From contig BQJN01000002.1 in the NCBI GenBank assembly GCA_021604725.1, positions 1 to 64,000 of the forward strand: 64,000 bases of DNA, in the 5' to 3' direction. Below the pieces are notes generated by a model. It was not told where the DNA came from. It saw nothing but the letters and a program-made list of their open reading frames with translations, and made no database searches. Position numbers and translations under genes: made by a program. Below, piece after piece: positions 5,688-24,479 of the stretch. This stretch comes from Lysobacteraceae bacterium. GTDB taxonomy: Bacteria; Pseudomonadota; Gammaproteobacteria; Xanthomonadales; BQJN01. The first letter of the stretch is position 1; every line of letters starts with the position of its first letter.

Positions 5688-5764
5688 GGAACTGGGATAA
5701 CAGTCCACAATCGAAGCAAAGCGCCCAAATACGTGTTTTCGCTGGCTTTCGGCTGGCCAGTGGC

Positions 5765-5770
5765 TATAAT
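5765..5770 (+). promoter_or_regulatory. Consensus -10 box for suhB
   Basis: A perfect TATAAT lies 44 bases before the suhB ATG in the 126-bp gap after the TPR gene. At a 17-bp spacer the -35 position reads CTGGCT, a weak match. The site implies suhB has its own promoter and does not depend on read-through. Confidence 0.6.
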
Positions 5771-5813
5771 CGGCACCCCTTCGCAACAATCGAATCTTTA
5801 GGGTACAGACACC

Positions 5814-6596
5814 ATGCGCGATCCGGCCGTCAATATCGCCGTCAGTGCGGCACGCAAAGCCGGGCGCACGATACTTCGCCTGATGAATCGGCGCGACAGT
5901 TTGTCGGTAGCCGAGAAGCAGCGTCACGATTACGTATCAGAGGCCGATCGAGCCGCTGAGGCGGAGATCATCTACGAGATTCAACGCCATTTCCCAGACC
6001 ATGGGTTTTTGGCGGAAGAGAGCGGCGCGCAAGGCAATGACCAGTATCAGTGGATTATCGACCCACTGGACGGTACCGCAAACTTTCTTTACGGCATTCC
6101 GCATTTCTCAATTTCGCTGGCCCTTCGGGCGGAAGGACGAATGGTGGTGGCGGTGATCTATGACCCGGTCAAGGAAGAGTTGTTTACGGCAACGCGAGGC
6201 AGTGGTGCATTCCTCAACGACCATCGGATCCGAGTAGGCCGTTGTACTGGTGTCAATGGCGCAATACTGGCTACCGGCTTTCCGTTTCGAAACCCCGACG
6301 GTATGTCAGATTACCTGGCTCGTTTCGGAAGGCTGTTTGACGCCGGATGTCAGGACATGCGCCGGGCCGGCTCAGCAGCACTTGATCTGGCCTACGTCGC
6401 CGCTGGAAGAGTGGACGGTTTCTGGGAATCCGGGCTCAAGCCATGGGATATTGCAGCTGGGTCCCTTCTGGTCAGAGAAGCGGGCGGTACGGTGATGGAC
6501 TACTCCGGTGGAACGGGCTATCTGGACAACGGCGACATCGTTGCCGGAAACCTTAAAGTCGCCACCAATATCGTGCGTTGTCTAGGGAAGCTCTGA
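5814..6596 (+). CDS. suhB: Inositol-1-monophosphatase family protein SuhB
   Basis: Mg2+-dependent phosphatase of the IMPase family; in E. coli the protein also acts in rRNA transcription antitermination. Signature residues are present: metal-site ADRAAEAEI and EESG (about residues 43-70), the DPLDGTANF motif near residue 83, and WDIAAGSLLVREAGG near residue 215. Length 260 aa is typical. The last codons and the stop (GGG AAG CTC TGA) belong to the inverted-repeat end of a MITE that begins at 6585, so the native C-terminus has been replaced. Without the element the frame would read on to a TAA at 7130, giving about nine further residues. The core fold is complete, so the protein is probably still functional. 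Confidence 0.93.
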   Translation: MRDPAVNIAVSAARKAGRTILRLMNRRDSLSVAEKQRHDYVSEADRAAEAEIIYEIQRHFPDHGFLAEESGAQGNDQYQWIIDPLDGTANFLYGIPHFSISLALRAEGRMVVAVIYDPVKEELFTATRGSGAFLNDHRIRVGRCTGVNGAILATGFPFRNPDGMSDYLARFGRLFDAGCQDMRRAGSAALDLAYVAAGRVDGFWESGLKPWDIAAGSLLVREAGGTVMDYSGGTGYLDNGDIVAGNLKVATNIVRCLGKL

Positions 6597-7100
6597 TTAA
6601 TTCGAATATGACTCTGGCCTACAGAGCAGTTCGCAATCGAGGCTTTACTTCGAAAGCATGCTCACTGCCTGGTGAGAAGGAATAACGAAGAGTGCGGGCT
6701 ACTCTGCAGGCCCCGTAGGGCTTGGCCTGAAGCGCACATCTGCGTTGTTCCATCCCTTGCCAAGGGTGAGCCGGATTCCGAGCGAGTGCGCCAAGGCACT
6801 CGATCCCGGCGAACGACCCATCAGGGAGGGTGGGGCTGGGGGTGCTACGGAGCGATAACGTTGCGCCATGGATGGCAACTCCGAGCATTCCAATGAAATT
6901 CCCACTTGGGTAACGAGCGACTGCAGCTGCCGTCCATGGCGAAGTGATCGAGCCTCAATGTAACCCCGGCCCAGCCATCCCTGGCTGGTCGTTCGCCACC
7001 TGCAGCGTGCCAAAGGGCACCCTGCATTGACGGTGGCTCACCCTAGCAGCTGCACGCTTCAGGTCAAGCAGAGCCGCATTCGAATTAATCAGAGCTTCCC
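6585..7100 (+). mobile_element. MITE copy 1 (long form, 516 bp) ending suhB
   Basis: Begins GGGAAGCTCTGAT and ends with its inverse, ATCAGAGCTTCCC; the terminal inverted repeats extend over about 32 bp and include ATTCGAAT. Its outer parts match MITE copies 2 and 3 almost base for base. It carries an internal block (about 6764-7043, with ends GGGTGAGCC and GGCTCACCC) made of two facing hairpin repeats, which replaces about 25 bp found in the shorter copies. No transposase is encoded. Flanks are TA on the left and TT on the right, so a 2-bp target duplication is plausible but diverged here. Confidence 0.88.
6764..7043. repeat. Composite inverted hairpin repeat nested in MITE copy 1
   Basis: Two units of the GGTGAGC family face each other. 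The left unit has a GAGTGC...GCACTC stem followed by CCCGGCGAACGAC; the right unit, on the other strand, has GGTGCC-CTTT-GGCAC followed by GGCGAACGACC and a CAGCCA-GGGA-TGGCTG hairpin. The ends are perfect 9-bp inverted repeats. The arrangement resembles the paired REP/BIME form of palindromic repeats. It is absent from the two short MITE copies, so it was inserted into, or lost from, the MITE lineage. Confidence 0.7.
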
Positions 7101-7192
7101 TTGCCACGCCGCCCAAGCCTGCCGACGCGTAACAATCTGTGAAATCCGTGCTGGCAGCGGCACGTGCCAGGGAGGCGCGTTACAATGCTGTC

Positions 7193-8161
7193 ATGACGCA
7201 GGAGATTCATGCGCAATGGAGTCTGCTGATTGACCGTTCGGTAATCGGCTGCTGCCTTGCGCGCGTCCTTAATGTCTTCATCATCGCCGCTTCGGCATTG
7301 TTGCTTCCTGCCCCTGGCCTGGCCGGCGACTCACTGGTCATCGGACGTGTCTCCAGCGATCCTGCGCGTGATGTGCAACGTATGCAGCCCATGGTCGACT
7401 ACGTCGCCAGCAAGTTGCAGCGTTTCGGAATCGAAAAGGGCGAGGTTCTGGTCGCTCAAGACGTTGACCAATTGCACCAGTATCTCGAGCAGGGTCGGAT
7501 TGACTGGATCACCGAAACTGCGGCCATCGCTTTGGAGTTGGCTGAGGGGCGGAAGTGTCAGGTGATGTTGCAACGAGCCAGGGAAGGGGCTTTGCAGTAC
7601 CACGGCGTTATCGTCGTTCGCGAACACAGTGAAATTCATTCGCTAGCCGATTTGGTCGGTCACCGTATTGCTTTCGAAGATCCTGGCTCCACCTCCGCTT
7701 ATCATTTGCCTGCTGCGCTCATCGTCAATGAAGGGTTGCAGCTGGAATTGTTGTCGACACCTCGAGAGGCGGTTCCTGCCGGCAGGATAGGCGCTGTGTT
7801 CTCCAGTGGAGAGCTCAATTCATCAATCTGGCTGGAACGCGGCCTGGTTGACGCAGCAGCCTTCAGCAATCTGGACTGGAGTGATCCTTGGGATGTTCCA
7901 AAGGCTCACCGTAGCGAGTTTCGGATTCTAGCCAGAACCAAGCCTGTACCACGCAATCTGGAGCTGTTTAGAACTGACCTGGGTCCAGATGTCGTGGCGG
8001 CCATGCAGCAAGTGTTACTGCAGGCGGCCAACGATCCTGCCGCAAAGGAGGCTATGGATCGCTTTAACCGCACTACCGAGTTTGCATTGCTAACGGATCA
8101 AGACTGGAACCTGTTGAACACACTGCGCCAGGAAATGGTCAAGGCAGGTACCGCACCGTGA
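7193..8161 (+). CDS. PhnD/SsuA-like periplasmic binding protein
   Basis: Phosphate/phosphonate-type solute-binding protein. After a signal segment (VLNVFIIAASALLLPAPGLAG) it has the family's opening LVIGRVSSDPARDVQRMQPMVDYVASKL, the hinge phrase YHGVIVVREHSEIHSLADLVGHRIAFEDPGSTSAYHLPA, and GAVFSSGELNSS. No ABC permease or ATPase is nearby. Instead its stop overlaps the start of a membrane GGDEF-EAL protein by 4 bases (GTGA), so it more likely serves as a ligand sensor for that protein than as a transporter part. I prefer ATG 7193 over the track start 7139. A TACAAT box at 7181 would place the transcript start almost on this ATG, so a leaderless message or a later start is possible. Confidence 0.8.
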   Translation: MTQEIHAQWSLLIDRSVIGCCLARVLNVFIIAASALLLPAPGLAGDSLVIGRVSSDPARDVQRMQPMVDYVASKLQRFGIEKGEVLVAQDVDQLHQYLEQGRIDWITETAAIALELAEGRKCQVMLQRAREGALQYHGVIVVREHSEIHSLADLVGHRIAFEDPGSTSAYHLPAALIVNEGLQLELLSTPREAVPAGRIGAVFSSGELNSSIWLERGLVDAAAFSNLDWSDPWDVPKAHRSEFRILARTKPVPRNLELFRTDLGPDVVAAMQQVLLQAANDPAAKEAMDRFNRTTEFALLTDQDWNLLNTLRQEMVKAGTAP

Positions 8162-18723: not shown

Positions 18724-18799
18724 GCCCAGGTAGCTCAGTCGGTAGAGCAGTGGATTGAAAATCCTCGTGTCGGTGGTTCGATTCCGCCCCTGGGCACCA
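18724..18799 (+). tRNA. tRNA-Phe (GAA)
   Basis: A 76-nt cloverleaf: acceptor GCCCAGG pairs with CCTGGGC, D-arm GCTC...GAGC, anticodon GAA at 18757-18759 in ATTGAAAAT, T-arm with GGTTCGATTCC, and an encoded CCA end. It is on the plus strand with no other tRNA nearby. Its 3' end is repeated 2.9 kb downstream (21685), marking it as an insertion site. Confidence 0.97.
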
Positions 18800-19157
18800 T
18801 CCTTTCATCATGTGCTAGAGCCGCGACGAAACGCCAATGCTTCGTACGTAGCGCTGTGGGCGGAATCGAACTGCGTGGGGTGCTCCGCGAATTGGTTGGG
18901 TGTTGGATTGGATCCGTGGTGCCACCAACCGTCCATGGTAGCCACCCGGCCTGCACGTCCATGTGCAGGCGTTTGTCCGCCGCAGAGTGCCTTGGGGCAC
19001 ACCGCACTGATGGCGGCCAAACCCCTGGGCACCATTCCTTTGGCTCCTGATACTCATCACTTCGCAGTGGTACGTTCGTGCTTCGGCTTGTCAGGCTGTG
19101 GGTGAGCCGGATCCACCAGAACGAGTGCCTTTAAGGCACTCGGTCCCGGCGAACGAC
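18785..19157 (+). repeat. Left 373-bp direct repeat starting in the tRNA-Phe 3' end
   Basis: Near-identical to 21685-22059. It starts with the tRNA end CGCCCCTGGGCACCA and contains a second att-like motif (CCCCTGGGCACCATTCCTTT, 19022-19041), an inverted piece of the tRNA T-arm (GGGCGGAATCGAAC, 18858-18871), a minus-strand hairpin composite (TGCACGTCCATGTGCA and AGTGCC-TTGG-GGCAC), and a GAGTGCC-TTTAA-GGCACTC hairpin at its right end. No open frame here is credible. Confidence 0.88.
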
Positions 19158-19614
19158 AAGAACTATTGCGCTTTGAACCGGACAGCAAAAGTCTTGCTGT
19201 TCGAGCTCATTTGCAACCAGTACCGCGGGAAAAACAATGGGTTCCTTTGCTGTGTTTTCGGCCTAATGAAGGATCGCAATATTGGCAGCAAGAATACGGT
19301 CAATGGCCAAGTGGGATTGCTAAAAATTGCCAAAAAATAGCTAACATTGAGCGGCCGTCGCGAACACCTGAAATGAGAATGGCGGGCTAGTTGGTGACGG
19401 GCTTGGTTACACCTTTCAAGAGAAACCTGAGGGCCTTTGGGGTCGCCGGCAATCAGGTTTGGAGTCCTTGCCACAAATGGCAGCTCAGTCTTTGGGGGCG
19501 GCAGGAGACGGTTTTGGTCGTAGAATTTTCCCCGGTTCTAAGGGGTTTGTATTGGCCCCTTGATCGGGCGAATCAATCTTTCGAACTGGTGTTGCTGGCC
19601 GTTGTTTTTTCGTC
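19158..19614. other. Non-coding or unrecognised stretch inside the islet
   Basis: About 457 bp between the left direct repeat and the DUF6338 gene. Short ORFs of up to about 84 codons exist on both strands, but none has a ribosome site, a recognisable domain or compositional support. I see no transposase or integrase remnant. Confidence 0.5.
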
Positions 19615-20220
19615 TTACTCACCTTTGATTTCCTCTACTTTGTAAAACTCAATCCATCGGACGTCCTTAGCCGGAATCAGTATGTCACGGGCCCTCAACT
19701 GCGTTTCGCTACCGTCACCGCTAACCCACGCAGCCTCTGAGACGTCGAAATGTCCTTCGTCAGGTGTAGGCGGCCAATGCAACACAAAGCATAGCAGCCT
19801 TTTACCATTTTCCAAGTGAAGTAGGACATACCCATGCGAGTCCATGAAACGACCATACCAAACCGAATGGTACGACGTTTCTCTCGTAACACTTCGGCTG
19901 CGGGCAAGCCGATGAATATAGTCGTTGTTTGCAGCATGTGCGAAAAGCAGTCCTAGACAGAGCCCCCAAAGTACGGAAGAAACCAGAGTTGATGTCTCCG
20001 TCCAGGGACCAAGTATCACCCATCGACCCAAGAATAGGGCGATGCCCTCAGTAAGCTTTATGACTACCTGAACAAAGAGCGTGTAGATCAGGGCTTGGAT
20101 GACATCAGCGAATTGAGACTCTGAGCGATAGGCCGTTAATCCCCGGAAGACCCACAGCACCAGAAAACCAGGAAGAAGGTATTGAAGTATGTCGATTAGG
20201 CCTTCAGATAGGTGCGCCAT
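19615..20220 (-). CDS. DUF6338-like membrane protein
   Basis: 201 aa. Three or four hydrophobic segments over residues ~10-115 (ILQYLLPGFLVLWVFRGL; VVIKLTEGIALFLG; SSVLWGLCLGLLFAHA), then a soluble C-terminal part: SVWYGRFMDSHGYVLLHLENGKRLLCFVLHWPPTPDEGHFDVSEAAWV, followed by DILIPAKDVRWIEFYK. This order, membrane helices then an SH3-like strand-rich tail on a conserved LxDGxRxxG-type core, is what I recall for DUF6338. The function is unknown. It is divergent from the HEPN-AbiC pair across a short AT-rich gap, and all three lie within one islet, so a shared defence role is inferred, not shown. Confidence 0.65.
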   Translation of the reverse strand: MAHLSEGLIDILQYLLPGFLVLWVFRGLTAYRSESQFADVIQALIYTLFVQVVIKLTEGIALFLGRWVILGPWTETSTLVSSVLWGLCLGLLFAHAANNDYIHRLARSRSVTRETSYHSVWYGRFMDSHGYVLLHLENGKRLLCFVLHWPPTPDEGHFDVSEAAWVSGDGSETQLRARDILIPAKDVRWIEFYKVEEIKGE

Positions 20221-20309
20221 CGTAGTAGGGACTTGTTATCCAATAATCACCAACTATGCTATATGTATAACTACATTTCACGCAATTGTAGCTATAGGGT
20301 TTGGAATCG

Positions 20310-20819
20310 ATGACCCCACGTTCGACCGATGACCAGCTGCGCGCTGCCGACGCTATGGTCGGCAAAGCCATACGTGCCTTTAGCGAACTTGAGGTCGAAT
20401 TGCACTTGTGTCTTCGCGAGTTCCTGCCTCTTGAGTCATACGAACACCTCGCAAAAAAGAGGCATCTTTCCATACCGATACTGACATCCGTCGTGTACGC
20501 GATGGTCTCAATAGATGTAGCAAAGTTGGAGCCCGTCGACCGAGAGCAGTTAGAGACCGACTTACGCGCGTGCTTGGATGAAATAGAAAGCCTATCGAAA
20601 ACCCGCAACAAATTGGCTCACAGTCCAGTATCAATCTGGCAGAACTCTGGGTTATTCCCTAGGAGCCGTTACGATGGCGTCGGTATATTTCGCAGCGCAA
20701 ATGGTAAGGAGCTTCAATTGGATCTGACTAGTATAGAAACGTTCGCTTTGGCAACAGTTGAAGCGCGACGAAAGCTCCAAGTGGTCATGTCCCACATTTC
20801 GCGATCGAGGGAAGAATGA
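20310..20819 (+). CDS. HEPN-like protein with RNKLAH motif (putative RNase)
   Basis: About 169 aa, mostly helical. Residues 99-104 read RNKLAH, the Rx4H motif that marks catalytic HEPN ribonucleases in abortive-infection and toxin systems; it is preceded by a long helix (QLETDLRACLDEIESLSKT), as in that fold. No antitoxin of the MNT type is adjacent. Its stop overlaps the start of the putAbiC-like gene by 4 bases (ATGA), so the two are translationally coupled. The ATG at 20310 is preferred to the TTG at 20301. An AT-rich promoter region (TATGCTATATGTATAA) lies 35-60 bases upstream. RNA cleavage is inferred from the motif only. Confidence 0.68.
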   Translation: MTPRSTDDQLRAADAMVGKAIRAFSELEVELHLCLREFLPLESYEHLAKKRHLSIPILTSVVYAMVSIDVAKLEPVDREQLETDLRACLDEIESLSKTRNKLAHSPVSIWQNSGLFPRSRYDGVGIFRSANGKELQLDLTSIETFALATVEARRKLQVVMSHISRSREE

Positions 20820-21580
20820 AGACTGATAAGGACGCGCAAAAAGTGTCGATGTCCGTCAGGGTTCGCAAGCCAAGTAAGCACAAGACTCCGGGACGGTTTT
20901 TCGGTGTGTTGGCAGGACTAGCAGTCCTCGGCGGTTTCGTATCTTATTGGCACTGGGTAAGTGAGATTCATCCGATTGAAAGCGGGGCAGGAACTCTCGG
21001 TGACAGTTTCGGGCCGCTAACCTCACTTTTCACTGGGCTGGCATTCGTCGGTCTAGTAGTCACACTACTTCTCCAAAGGGCCGACTTAAGACACCAGATG
21101 ATGGAGCTCGAAGAGACTAGGGGCGATGCCAACCGGAGAGGGATCGAGGCGACCTATTTCCAGATGCTTCGACTGTGGAGCGAATCAGTCCATCAATTGG
21201 AAACGAAGAACCATTGCGGTAGGCAGGTAGTCTCGCTATTTTTCAACAAGATGTCTGGCACTGGCGACCTACAGATACACGAGTCATTCAACGAGGTTTG
21301 GCACAATCGAGGGTTTGACGAACTGCTCGAGCCTATTTACTCCAAGTTCTTGTTCGAAATACTACTTTTCATCGAGACTAGAACAGAAACCACAGACACT
21401 CAGTCAAAAGTTTTGTACCAAAGGCTGTTGCGGGCTCAATTATCCAAGAAGGAATTCGAGCTAGTATTGCATATCATTCGACACAAAAAATGCGATTCGG
21501 GCCTCGAGCGCCTATTCGGGTCGATTTGCGCGATTGAGATGGAGGGCGAAGGCGAGAATAGAGACTTCAACGCAAAGTGA
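20816..21580 (+). CDS. Putative phage abortive infection protein (putAbiC-like)
   Basis: 254 aa. Two membrane helices (FFGVLAGLAVLGGFVSYWHWV, ~28-48; LTSLFTGLAFVGLVVTLLLQ, ~68-88) separated by the family hallmark GAGTLGDSFGPLTSLFTGLAF. A coiled coil follows (RADLRHQMMELEETRGDANRR) and then a helical cytoplasmic domain starting ATYFQMLRLWSESVHQLE. This matches the putative phage abortive infection (putAbiC) family closely. In such proteins the membrane part is thought to anchor a sensor or effector. Here it is coupled to the HEPN gene, which could be the killing enzyme. The C-terminal domain is not otherwise recognised. Confidence 0.82.
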   Translation: MKTDKDAQKVSMSVRVRKPSKHKTPGRFFGVLAGLAVLGGFVSYWHWVSEIHPIESGAGTLGDSFGPLTSLFTGLAFVGLVVTLLLQRADLRHQMMELEETRGDANRRGIEATYFQMLRLWSESVHQLETKNHCGRQVVSLFFNKMSGTGDLQIHESFNEVWHNRGFDELLEPIYSKFLFEILLFIETRTETTDTQSKVLYQRLLRAQLSKKEFELVLHIIRHKKCDSGLERLFGSICAIEMEGEGENRDFNAK

Positions 21581-21684
21581 AGGCAAGGCAAGCAAGCAAA
21601 CCGGGGGAACTTTTGGGGGAACTGGCATTGTGTTCCGTGAGTTAAATTCATTATTTCCAAGGGCTTATGTTAACTATATGGTAG

Positions 21685-22059
21685 CGCCCCTGGCACCATT
21701 CCTTTCATACGATAGCTCCTAGCCGCGACGAAACTCCAATGCTTCGGACGTAGCGCTGTGGGCGGAATCGAACGGCGTTGGGTGCTTCGCGAAGGAGTTG
21801 GGTGTTGGGTTGGACCCGTGGTGCCACCAACCCTCCATGGTAGCCACCCGGCCTGCACGTCCATGTGCAGGCGTTTGTCCGCCGCAGAGTGCCTTGGGGC
21901 ACTCCGCACTGATGGCGGCCAAACCCCTGGGCACCATTCCTTTGGCTCCTGATACTCATCACTTCGCAGTGGTACGTTTGTGCTTCGGCTTGTCAGGCTG
22001 TGGGTGAGCCGGATCCACCAGAACGAGTGACTTAACGTCACTCGGTCCCGGCGAACGAC
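21685..22059 (+). repeat. Right 375-bp direct repeat (partial tRNA-Phe end, attR-like)
   Basis: Matches 18785-19157 with scattered substitutions and small indels. The tRNA end has lost one G (CGCCCCTGGCACCA). The second att-like motif is at 21924-21943 and the inverted T-arm piece at 21760-21773. The terminal hairpin is GAGTGAC-TTAAC-GTCACTC where the left copy has GAGTGCC/GGCACTC, so the stem changed on both arms. After the repeat the hairpin composite continues with GGTACATGGATGTACC. Confidence 0.88.
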
Positions 22060-22552: not shown

Positions 22553-23591
22553 GTGAAACAACGCATCGATGTAGGAACTGATGTTGCGCGGGTTGGTGTT
22601 TGGGATGCGTCTTGTGCGGATGATCCGTTGCCGGAGCTTGGGATTGGCCAGCTTGCGGATGTGATTGCGGAGGATGCGAAGCGGGGGCGGGTGTTTCTTC
22701 TGCAGCTTGGGGGTGATTGGGGTGGTTCGGTTGATGTCTATGTAGACAGCTCTGTGTGTGACGAGCATTCCGGTGCGATGGAGCGCTTGCCGGGGAAGTT
22801 TCTGGTGTCGGCTCCAACGGGTCAAATTGTGGTTGGAGGGGCTGAGGACTATCGACGTGCAGAACCTGGGATTACGTCCGAGTCCAGCGTTGTCGAGCTG
22901 CCGGTTGGCGACTACAGTGTTGAATGCTATGAGTTGAAGAGCGGGCATCATGAGTATCCAGATGGGCCGTCTTTTGAGGAAGTTAAAAAGGATGTTGGTG
23001 CTGAGGCATACGAGTATTACGAGCGCTTCAACAAGGGAAGCTCTGATTAATTCGAATATGACTCTGGCCTACAGAGCAGTTCGCAATCGAGGCCTTCCTT
23101 CGAAAGCATGCTCACTGCCTGGTGAGAAGGAATAACGAAGAGTGCGGGCTGCTCTGCAGGCCCCGCAGGGCTTGGCCTGAAGCGCACATCTGCGTTGTTC
23201 CATCCCTTGCCAAGGGCTACGGCCATTGCCTGCGGAATGCGCCTAGCAGCTGCACGCTTCAGGTCAAGCAGAGCCGCATTCGAATTGATCAGAGCTTCCC
23301 AAGCAAACCCTCCGTGGATTTTTTCTGCCCATTCTCTTTTTTCCGCTTTGGTATTTCTTTGGGGCCTTAATCGCTGCGGTAATTACCGCTGTGTTGTTCT
23401 TCGGGTACTTTCATATTCAGGATTGGAGACAGCGGCGAGACCCCAGGTATTGCCTGGTCGACAAAGCGGCACAGTCGGCCAGGGTGCAGGCAGCAGAGAC
23501 GATGCCACCGGCTTTTGCATTGGTGTTGACACGACTGAGTTCAAAGGGGCAACTTCAGGGTGGAATCTTGGACTGCTCTCATGTTCAGTGA
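22553..23591 (+). pseudogene. Unrecognised gene split by MITE copy 2
   Basis: GTG 22553 has a strong GAGGAG site. The upstream frame (165 aa) ends inside the MITE at 23050. Deleting 23035-23300 plus one AA of the 2-bp duplication joins it in frame to an open frame running to a TGA at 23589-23591, giving 256 aa. The N-terminal ~155 residues are soluble and mixed alpha/beta (GKFLVSAPTGQIVVGGAEDYRRA). The restored part adds one or two membrane helices (GFFLPILFFPLWYFFGALIAAVITAVLFFGYF) and a cytoplasmic tail. The family is not recognised. The present product would be a soluble protein lacking its membrane anchor. Confidence 0.8.
23035..23300 (+). mobile_element. MITE copy 2 (266 bp)
   Basis: Ends GGGAAGCTCTGAT and ATCAGAGCTTCCC with ~32-bp inverted repeats, no coding capacity, and a 2-bp duplication (AA) on both sides. 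Apart from one internal segment it is almost identical to copy 1. The left end carries stop codons in two of three frames within 16 bases (CTC TGA; GAT TAA), so it ends any gene it enters from that side in those frames. Confidence 0.92.
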
Positions 23592-23715: not shown

Positions 23716-24479
23716 ATGTCCAAAAAGCGAAAGTCCAAATACAAAGCCTACGTTCCGCATCCTCGCTACGGAGACAAGCCGGTTTACTCCGGGGAGAGCT
23801 TTACGCTTGAAGAGATCCATTCGGCGTTCTGGCGGTACCGAGGTGAGGCGGTGTTTCCAGAGTCGGCGGTGGCGGCGGATGTGGACAAGCAGAATTACTC
23901 GATCTTTCCGCGCAAGGTGTATGTGGACATTGAGAAAGCGTGCAGGGAATGCGGTAGGCACTTTCTTTTTTACGCTCTGGAACAGCGGTACTGGTTTGAA
24001 GAGTTGGGAAGCTCTGATCCATTGGAATACGGCTCTGCTTGACCTGAAGCGTGCAGCTGCTAGGCGCATTCCGCAGGTAATGGCCGTAGCCCTTGGCAAG
24101 GGATGGAACAACGCAGATGTGCGCTTCAGGCCAAGCCCTGCGGGGCCGGCAGAGCAGCCCGCACTCTATCGTCATGCCTCCTCACCAGGCAGTGAGCATG
24201 CTTTCGGAGGAAGGCCTCGATTGCGAACTGCTCTGTAGGCCAGAGTCATATTCGAATGGGTCAGAGCTTCCCTTGGGATTCTACGTTGATGCGGACTGTG
24301 TGAAGTGTGTTGAGTGCAGGAAGGCGGAGCAGCAGGTGAAGCTGTTGATGCTGGAGTATGAGGCTTTACTGAAGCTAGACAAGCGAGACGGTCAGGAGTC
24401 GGCCAGGTTGAAGGAGGTTGCCGAGGAGCTGTTCCGGGTAGGCTACATCAAGAATCCGGACAAGGCTCGAGGGAAGTAG
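23716..24479 (+). pseudogene. Zinc-ribbon protein gene split by MITE copy 3
   Basis: Removing 24006-24272 plus one TT of the 2-bp duplication rebuilds a 164-aa protein from ATG 23716. Its core reads CRECGRHFLFYALEQRYWFEELG then FYVDADCVKCVECRK, two CxxC knuckles flanking a YW-E-L segment, as in the small probable zinc-ribbon family (zf-trcl). A Lys-rich N-terminus (MSKKRKSKYKAY) suggests nucleic-acid contact. A helical tail follows. The element separates the two CxxC pairs, so the present gene cannot form the zinc site. No ribosome site is evident before 23716. Confidence 0.85.
24006..24272 (-). mobile_element. MITE copy 3 (267 bp), inverted relative to copy 2
   Basis: Same inverted-repeat ends (GGGAAGCTCTGAT / TCAGAGCTTCCC), but its interior is the reverse complement of copy 2: CTTGACCTGAAGCGTGCAGCTGC appears first and the GGCCAGAGTCATATTCGAAT end last. 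A TT target duplication flanks it. Copies 2 and 3 therefore face each other about 700 bp apart and could form a large cruciform or invert the segment between them. Confidence 0.92.

Follow-up and report, generated by a model that had tools for sequence, protein, structure and literature searches.

Does the small group of genes behind a tRNA-Phe gene of this Lysobacteraceae bacterium constitute an anti-phage system, and if so, which of the genes belong to it? The window, meaning the whole 64,000-nt stretch of DNA that was analysed, contains a 2.9-kb islet inserted behind tRNA-Phe, with a cargo of three genes between two direct repeats. These genes encode a putative HEPN-type ribonuclease (RNase), a membrane protein of the putAbiC family and, on the opposite strand, a membrane protein of the DUF6338 family. 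The original prediction, which was made from the sequence, linked all three proteins in a single defence system, with putAbiC as a proposed sensor of infection that would set free or activate the HEPN RNase, and DUF6338 as its second membrane part.

The islet and its direct repeats

The presumed integration target is the tRNA-Phe (GAA) gene located by ARAGORN at 18724..18799 on the plus strand. The left direct repeat (18785..19159, plus strand) starts in the tRNA 3' end, and the right direct repeat (21685..22059, plus strand) is 93% identical to it over 375 bp and 96% identical over a 300-nt core. Repeat identity begins within the tRNA acceptor end at GCGCCCCTGG.CACCAT, which is the tRNA 3' end, as expected of tRNA-targeted integration. 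The cargo between the repeats (19160..21684) has a GC content of 49.4%, compared with 56.1% for the window. A 20-bp core, CCCCTGGGCACCATTCCTTT, which looks like the tRNA 3' end, occurs in four copies in the 4.68-Mb assembly when up to 3 mismatches are allowed (at 18787 and 19022 in the left repeat, and at 21687 and 21924 in the right repeat), all on the same strand and none outside the islet locus, and a reversed control pattern of this core is absent from the whole assembly. Because each repeat includes a second tRNA-end-like core (19022, 21924), the cores total four, not two. The repeat includes two segments (query positions ~133-231 and 315-373) that are dispersed genome-wide, with about 50 further partial matches, so only the remainder of the repeat is locus-specific; despite these dispersed stretches, the complete 375-bp unit is unique to the islet locus. 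The predicted ~375-bp direct repeats, extending from the tRNA-Phe 3' end and bracketing three genes, were thus located together with the tRNA, while their description required amendment with respect to the dispersed parts and the number of cores.

No phage-integrase domain (PF00589) was found on the islet contig, in agreement with the earlier description of an islet without an integrase; the genome, a draft of 210 contigs and 90% completeness, has four such domains, on contigs C108, C56, C11 and C25. Of the hallmarks of a tRNA-targeted element, the islet therefore has tRNA 3'-end direct repeats at both borders (18787, 21687) and lacks an integrase of its own. Integration may have been catalyzed by a recombinase acting in trans, or a circle with the 375-bp unit may have entered by single-crossover or homologous recombination; the layout fits both routes. 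Within the islet, the promoters of the two transcription units must both lie in an 89-nt divergent intergenic region (20221..20309); scans returned no consensus promoters or terminators above shuffle background.

Several other repetitive features are present in the window. The REP-like dispersed repeat at 19099-19159 and 22001-22059 contains a palindrome (GAGTGCCTTTAAGGCACTC against GAGTGACTTAACGTCACTC) in which the two copies differ by a compensatory change, and dozens of its relatives are scattered over the genome. A MITE-like element of 266 bp, whose terminal inverted repeats are 32 nt long, is present at 23035-23300, at 24006-24272, and at 6585-6766 with 7042-7100. The first two copies are inverted and flank a small zinc-finger (zf_Tbcl) gene in the manner of a composite element; the third copy, near 6.6 kb, is interrupted by about 275 bp of sequence that opens with a dispersed repeat. 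Just to the right of the islet, an ORF at 22553-23050 has sub-threshold similarity to DUF6386.

The HEPN-type protein and its homologs

The first gene of the plus-strand pair (20310..20819) encodes the HEPN-type putative RNase, whose ORF starts at TTG 20301 (172 aa) or, more likely, at ATG 20310 (169 aa). In a Pfam scan of this ORF no curated family reaches its cut-off, the best being HEPN_Cthe2314 (E=0.08), and its only PADLOC matches are Csx1 (E=0.0075) and CARF-HEPN (E=0.026), which are likewise the only PADLOC matches of one of its homologs (L167) queried on its own. The protein contains the sequence RNKLAH, an instance of the catalytic HEPN motif Rx4-6H with a polar residue after the R. 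Four distant homologs (22-24% identity) all retain R99, N100, A103 and H104 (R-N-x-x-A-H), and of the only eight columns that never vary in the five-sequence alignment, four are these motif residues. Searched against 177,635 distinct PDB sequences, the HEPN profile finds as its best match the Csm6 RNase (6tug, E=0.008), with RNKVAH aligned on the motif. In an AF2 single-sequence model (pLDDT 79), the motif ends a long penultimate helix (residues 78-106), with strands and one more helix after it. This is the position where HEPN motifs are known to sit, at the end of helix 3 in the four-helix HEPN fold, and HEPN domains with such a motif are described as RNases that need no metal and that serve in defence and stress (PMC3710099). 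Foldseek with this model returned no significant match in PDB or BFVD, the best BFVD match, also not significant, being the unnamed viral protein A0A4Y5TZQ9 (TM 0.61).

On the strength of these sequence comparisons, the protein is likely a HEPN protein and would be expected to be catalytic. The original HEPN assignment, made from RNKLAH, is strengthened by retention of the motif in the four homologs and by the Csm6 match, and the Arg/His pair is intact and conserved in its family. A skeptical reading would see in it a helical protein without catalytic activity, and in the repeats mere dispersed intergenic repeats, pointing to the lack of a curated HEPN family at cut-off and to the dispersed parts of the repeat. 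This is very unlikely, however, given a motif that is invariant in distant homologs and aligned to that of an active RNase, and given that the whole 375-bp unit and its cores are unique to the locus.

Single-protein searches, which are sensitive to close relatives only, found no relative of the HEPN protein in plasmids, phages, IMG/VR viral contigs, 84,980 genome species and ~500 whole genomes. A sweep of 399 genomes, which have only their order in common with the present one, gave one marginal match, the 163-aa homolog L167. Profile searches covered about 130 genomes, with a two-sequence profile (window plus L167) leading to L172 and L173, and a four-sequence profile leading to L182. The surroundings of these homologs were examined in the corresponding wider loci L178, L179, L180 and L183. 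The homolog in L178 is followed by an hsdM fragment and an IS3-type transposase, while two others lie in chromosomal integron cassette arrays, one with attC-like sites CCTAAC...GTTAGG (L179:6390-6866) and one with repeated CTAACACCG cassette borders (L183:7930-8430). In L180, a homolog directly behind tRNA-Thr and a multi-helix membrane protein next to it are at 5695-7550. putAbiC is found beside none of the four. These proteins add an uncurated family of stand-alone HEPN proteins, which appears to be mobile by integron cassettes and, probably, tRNA islets.

The putAbiC family and the recurrence of the gene set

The second gene of the pair (20816..21580, plus strand) encodes a 254-aa membrane protein whose predicted putAbiC identity is confirmed by a match above the gathering score (PF16872, E=2.4e-5, 25.2 bits, cut-off 22), and which also matches PHROG 8999 (E=1.3e-9). 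Its start overlaps the HEPN stop, with the HEPN TGA and the putAbiC ATG forming the ATGA noted earlier (20816-20819). The protein has N-terminal hydrophobic helices followed by a helical domain (AF2 pLDDT 82), and Foldseek with its AF2 model gave no significant PDB match. In PADLOC it has a weak match to HEC-02B (E=0.003) and no match to the AbiP model up to E=1, and its C-terminus diverges from those of its relatives. All 9 putAbiC relatives tested match AbiP (about 1e-9 to 3e-18; a tenth protein, which is a downstream neighbour and not putAbiC, was left out of the count), and some also match AbiC. Membrane anchoring is shared by the Abi proteins AbiP, which binds nucleic acids, and PdpSau, an AbiP-like protein that affects the membrane potential of infected cells (PMC10127798). 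A literature search found no papers naming putAbiC or PDC-M34.

The putAbiC comparison set consists of 98 loci, including a few near-duplicates. Candidates L011-L017 match only in the N-terminal helix region, look like a different membrane family, and were therefore dropped. Among the matches listed, the neighbours of putAbiC relatives include TIR, GmrSD, AbiEii, Mrr, Schlafen-AlbA and DNA methylases; no recurring partner gene appears among the neighbour matches listed, and many relatives have no same-strand neighbour. Judged from family lists alone, these data support PF16872 as a widespread membrane family, often beside defence genes, and the proposed link of putAbiC to abortive infection finds backing both in these neighbours and in the AbiP and AbiC matches of the relatives. 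One relative is encoded on the filamentous Vibrio phage vB_VipaK (L036:5890-6738), and another lies among Vibrio genes resembling an integron cassette array (DUF3709, DUF3024, RelE/HigA; L026:5881-6753).

A window-type HEPN homolog is present at 0/98 putAbiC loci. The neighbour families were taken from best-25 lists, from which rare neighbours may escape, but the HEPN profile scan is free of that limit, and over the 7,802 ORFs of all collected loci it found beside putAbiC only the window's own copy. The homologs of the two genes are thus nowhere adjacent in the loci searched, contrary to the co-occurrence on which the original prediction had staked a conserved system. The overlapping genes could be independent mobile passengers that landed adjacent, with ATGA coupling translation only and the proteins not cooperating. 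Such a history would agree with the count above, with the many putAbiC genes that have no same-strand neighbour, and with the HEPN homologs that travel without putAbiC (two in integron arrays, one before the hsdM fragment and one behind tRNA-Thr). Against this, a 4-bp stop/start overlap is usually a sign of selected co-translation, and a different HEPN gene precedes putAbiC in Devosia (L055:2425-4133), where the two lie 99 nt apart on the same strand. The Devosia HEPN is of the Swt1 type (PF18731, E=4e-6, just under its cut-off; PADLOC PDC-M34B, E=2e-28), and this independent pair, with a HEPN of another family, keeps the general idea of HEPN plus putAbiC alive. We regard independent passengers as a real possibility, although we rate it below even.

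The third gene (19615..20220, minus strand) encodes a 201-aa membrane protein with about three hydrophobic segments by hydropathy, and the earlier call of a DUF6338-like protein divergent from HEPN and putAbiC holds (PF19865, E=1.6e-9, 38.1 bits, gathering cut-off 26.5). Its proposed role as a further membrane part of the system draws on the common islet, on the shared 89-nt divergent promoter region, and on the membrane protein beside the L180 HEPN homolog, which has a weak likeness to DUF6338 (E=0.007, below cut-off). This last protein was rejected as a DUF6338 relative, however, by profile comparison (0.3% probability). Furthermore, DUF6338 is common, being above cut-off in 20/399 genomes, and among the matches listed its relatives adjoin housekeeping genes, including HSP70, GrpE, Dus and others. 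With 0/98 putAbiC loci, 0/4 HEPN homologs and these housekeeping neighbours, neither the pair nor the trio recurs in the loci searched, and the proposed three-gene system is not supported. We consider it extremely unlikely that there is a three-part system, or that DUF6338 belongs to a HEPN/putAbiC system; the gene probably has no part in the function of the operon, and would most likely be an unrelated passenger.

Possible function and relation to known systems

The best explanation, to which we give a slightly better than even chance, is that the islet carries an Abi-like operon, consisting of translationally coupled HEPN and putAbiC genes in an integrase-less tRNA-Phe islet, with DUF6338 as a passenger. 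The HEPN protein would most likely be a metal-independent endoribonuclease that cuts cellular or phage RNA, halting growth, and putAbiC would most likely be a membrane-anchored, helical AbiP/AbiC-like protein which either reacts to infection or keeps the RNase in check. The simplest reading is that of a co-translated Abi-like pair, in which the membrane protein may sense or gate and the RNase may stop growth; the parts of the islet plausibly have a defence role. The two genes seem to have been mobile separately and to have come together at this locus, as opposed to descending as a conserved unit. Overlap between two genes of a tRNA islet, as this case shows, need not mean that they form a conserved system.

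Two more specific forms of cooperation can be considered. The pair may be a two-component anti-phage system, in which an AbiP-like protein anchored in the membrane recognizes infection and switches on the HEPN RNase, a separate protein. We think this unlikely, but if it is true, a second and independent instance of such a design would be the Devosia Swt1-HEPN/putAbiC pair, and cooperation of the pair would provide a first function and a first partner for the widespread putAbiC membrane family. Alternatively, the pair may be a module of the toxin-antitoxin type, with HEPN as the toxin and putAbiC neutralizing it at the membrane, as MNT proteins do with HEPN toxins. The overlapping order of HEPN followed by putAbiC would suit such a module, and HEPN proteins are classic toxins that have a partner gene next to them, as described for HEPN/MNT (PMC7641770). 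A Pfam scan, however, found neither an MNT nor another antitoxin domain in putAbiC, which mostly occurs without a HEPN partner, and none of the four HEPN homologs has a putAbiC partner, leaving this option more doubtful than the two-component system.

Comparison with known systems places the presumed Abi-like operon among several precedents. Like AbiP and AbiC of Lactococcus and PdpSau (PMC10127798), the putAbiC protein has a membrane-anchored N-terminus, a cytosolic helical domain and Abi-type relatives, and its kin are often found in defence neighbourhoods or mobile elements. Unlike these proteins, it can be tied to the AbiP models only via its relatives, its C-terminus diverges, and the HEPN gene in front of it overlaps its start. 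The nearest solved match of the HEPN protein is Csm6/Csx1, with which it shares an Rx4H motif (RNKLAH), placed by the AF2 model at the end of the helix before last and ahead of beta strands; unlike Csm6/Csx1, it is a 169-aa single-domain protein, belonging to no curated family and lacking CARF and CRISPR genes. It also resembles the HEPN protein of an integron cassette (PDB 3jrt; PMC3710099) in being a small, stand-alone Rx4H protein, two of its homologs lying in cassette arrays, although 3jrt is not among the PDB matches of the HEPN profile up to E=10. Finally, the idea of an RNase tied to a membrane sensor recalls the membrane-associated HEPN proteins of the Abi2/SWT1 type (PMC3710099) and PDC-M34B, the type that is paired with putAbiC in Devosia. 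By contrast, the islet encodes its HEPN and membrane parts as two proteins, and its HEPN belongs to a different family.
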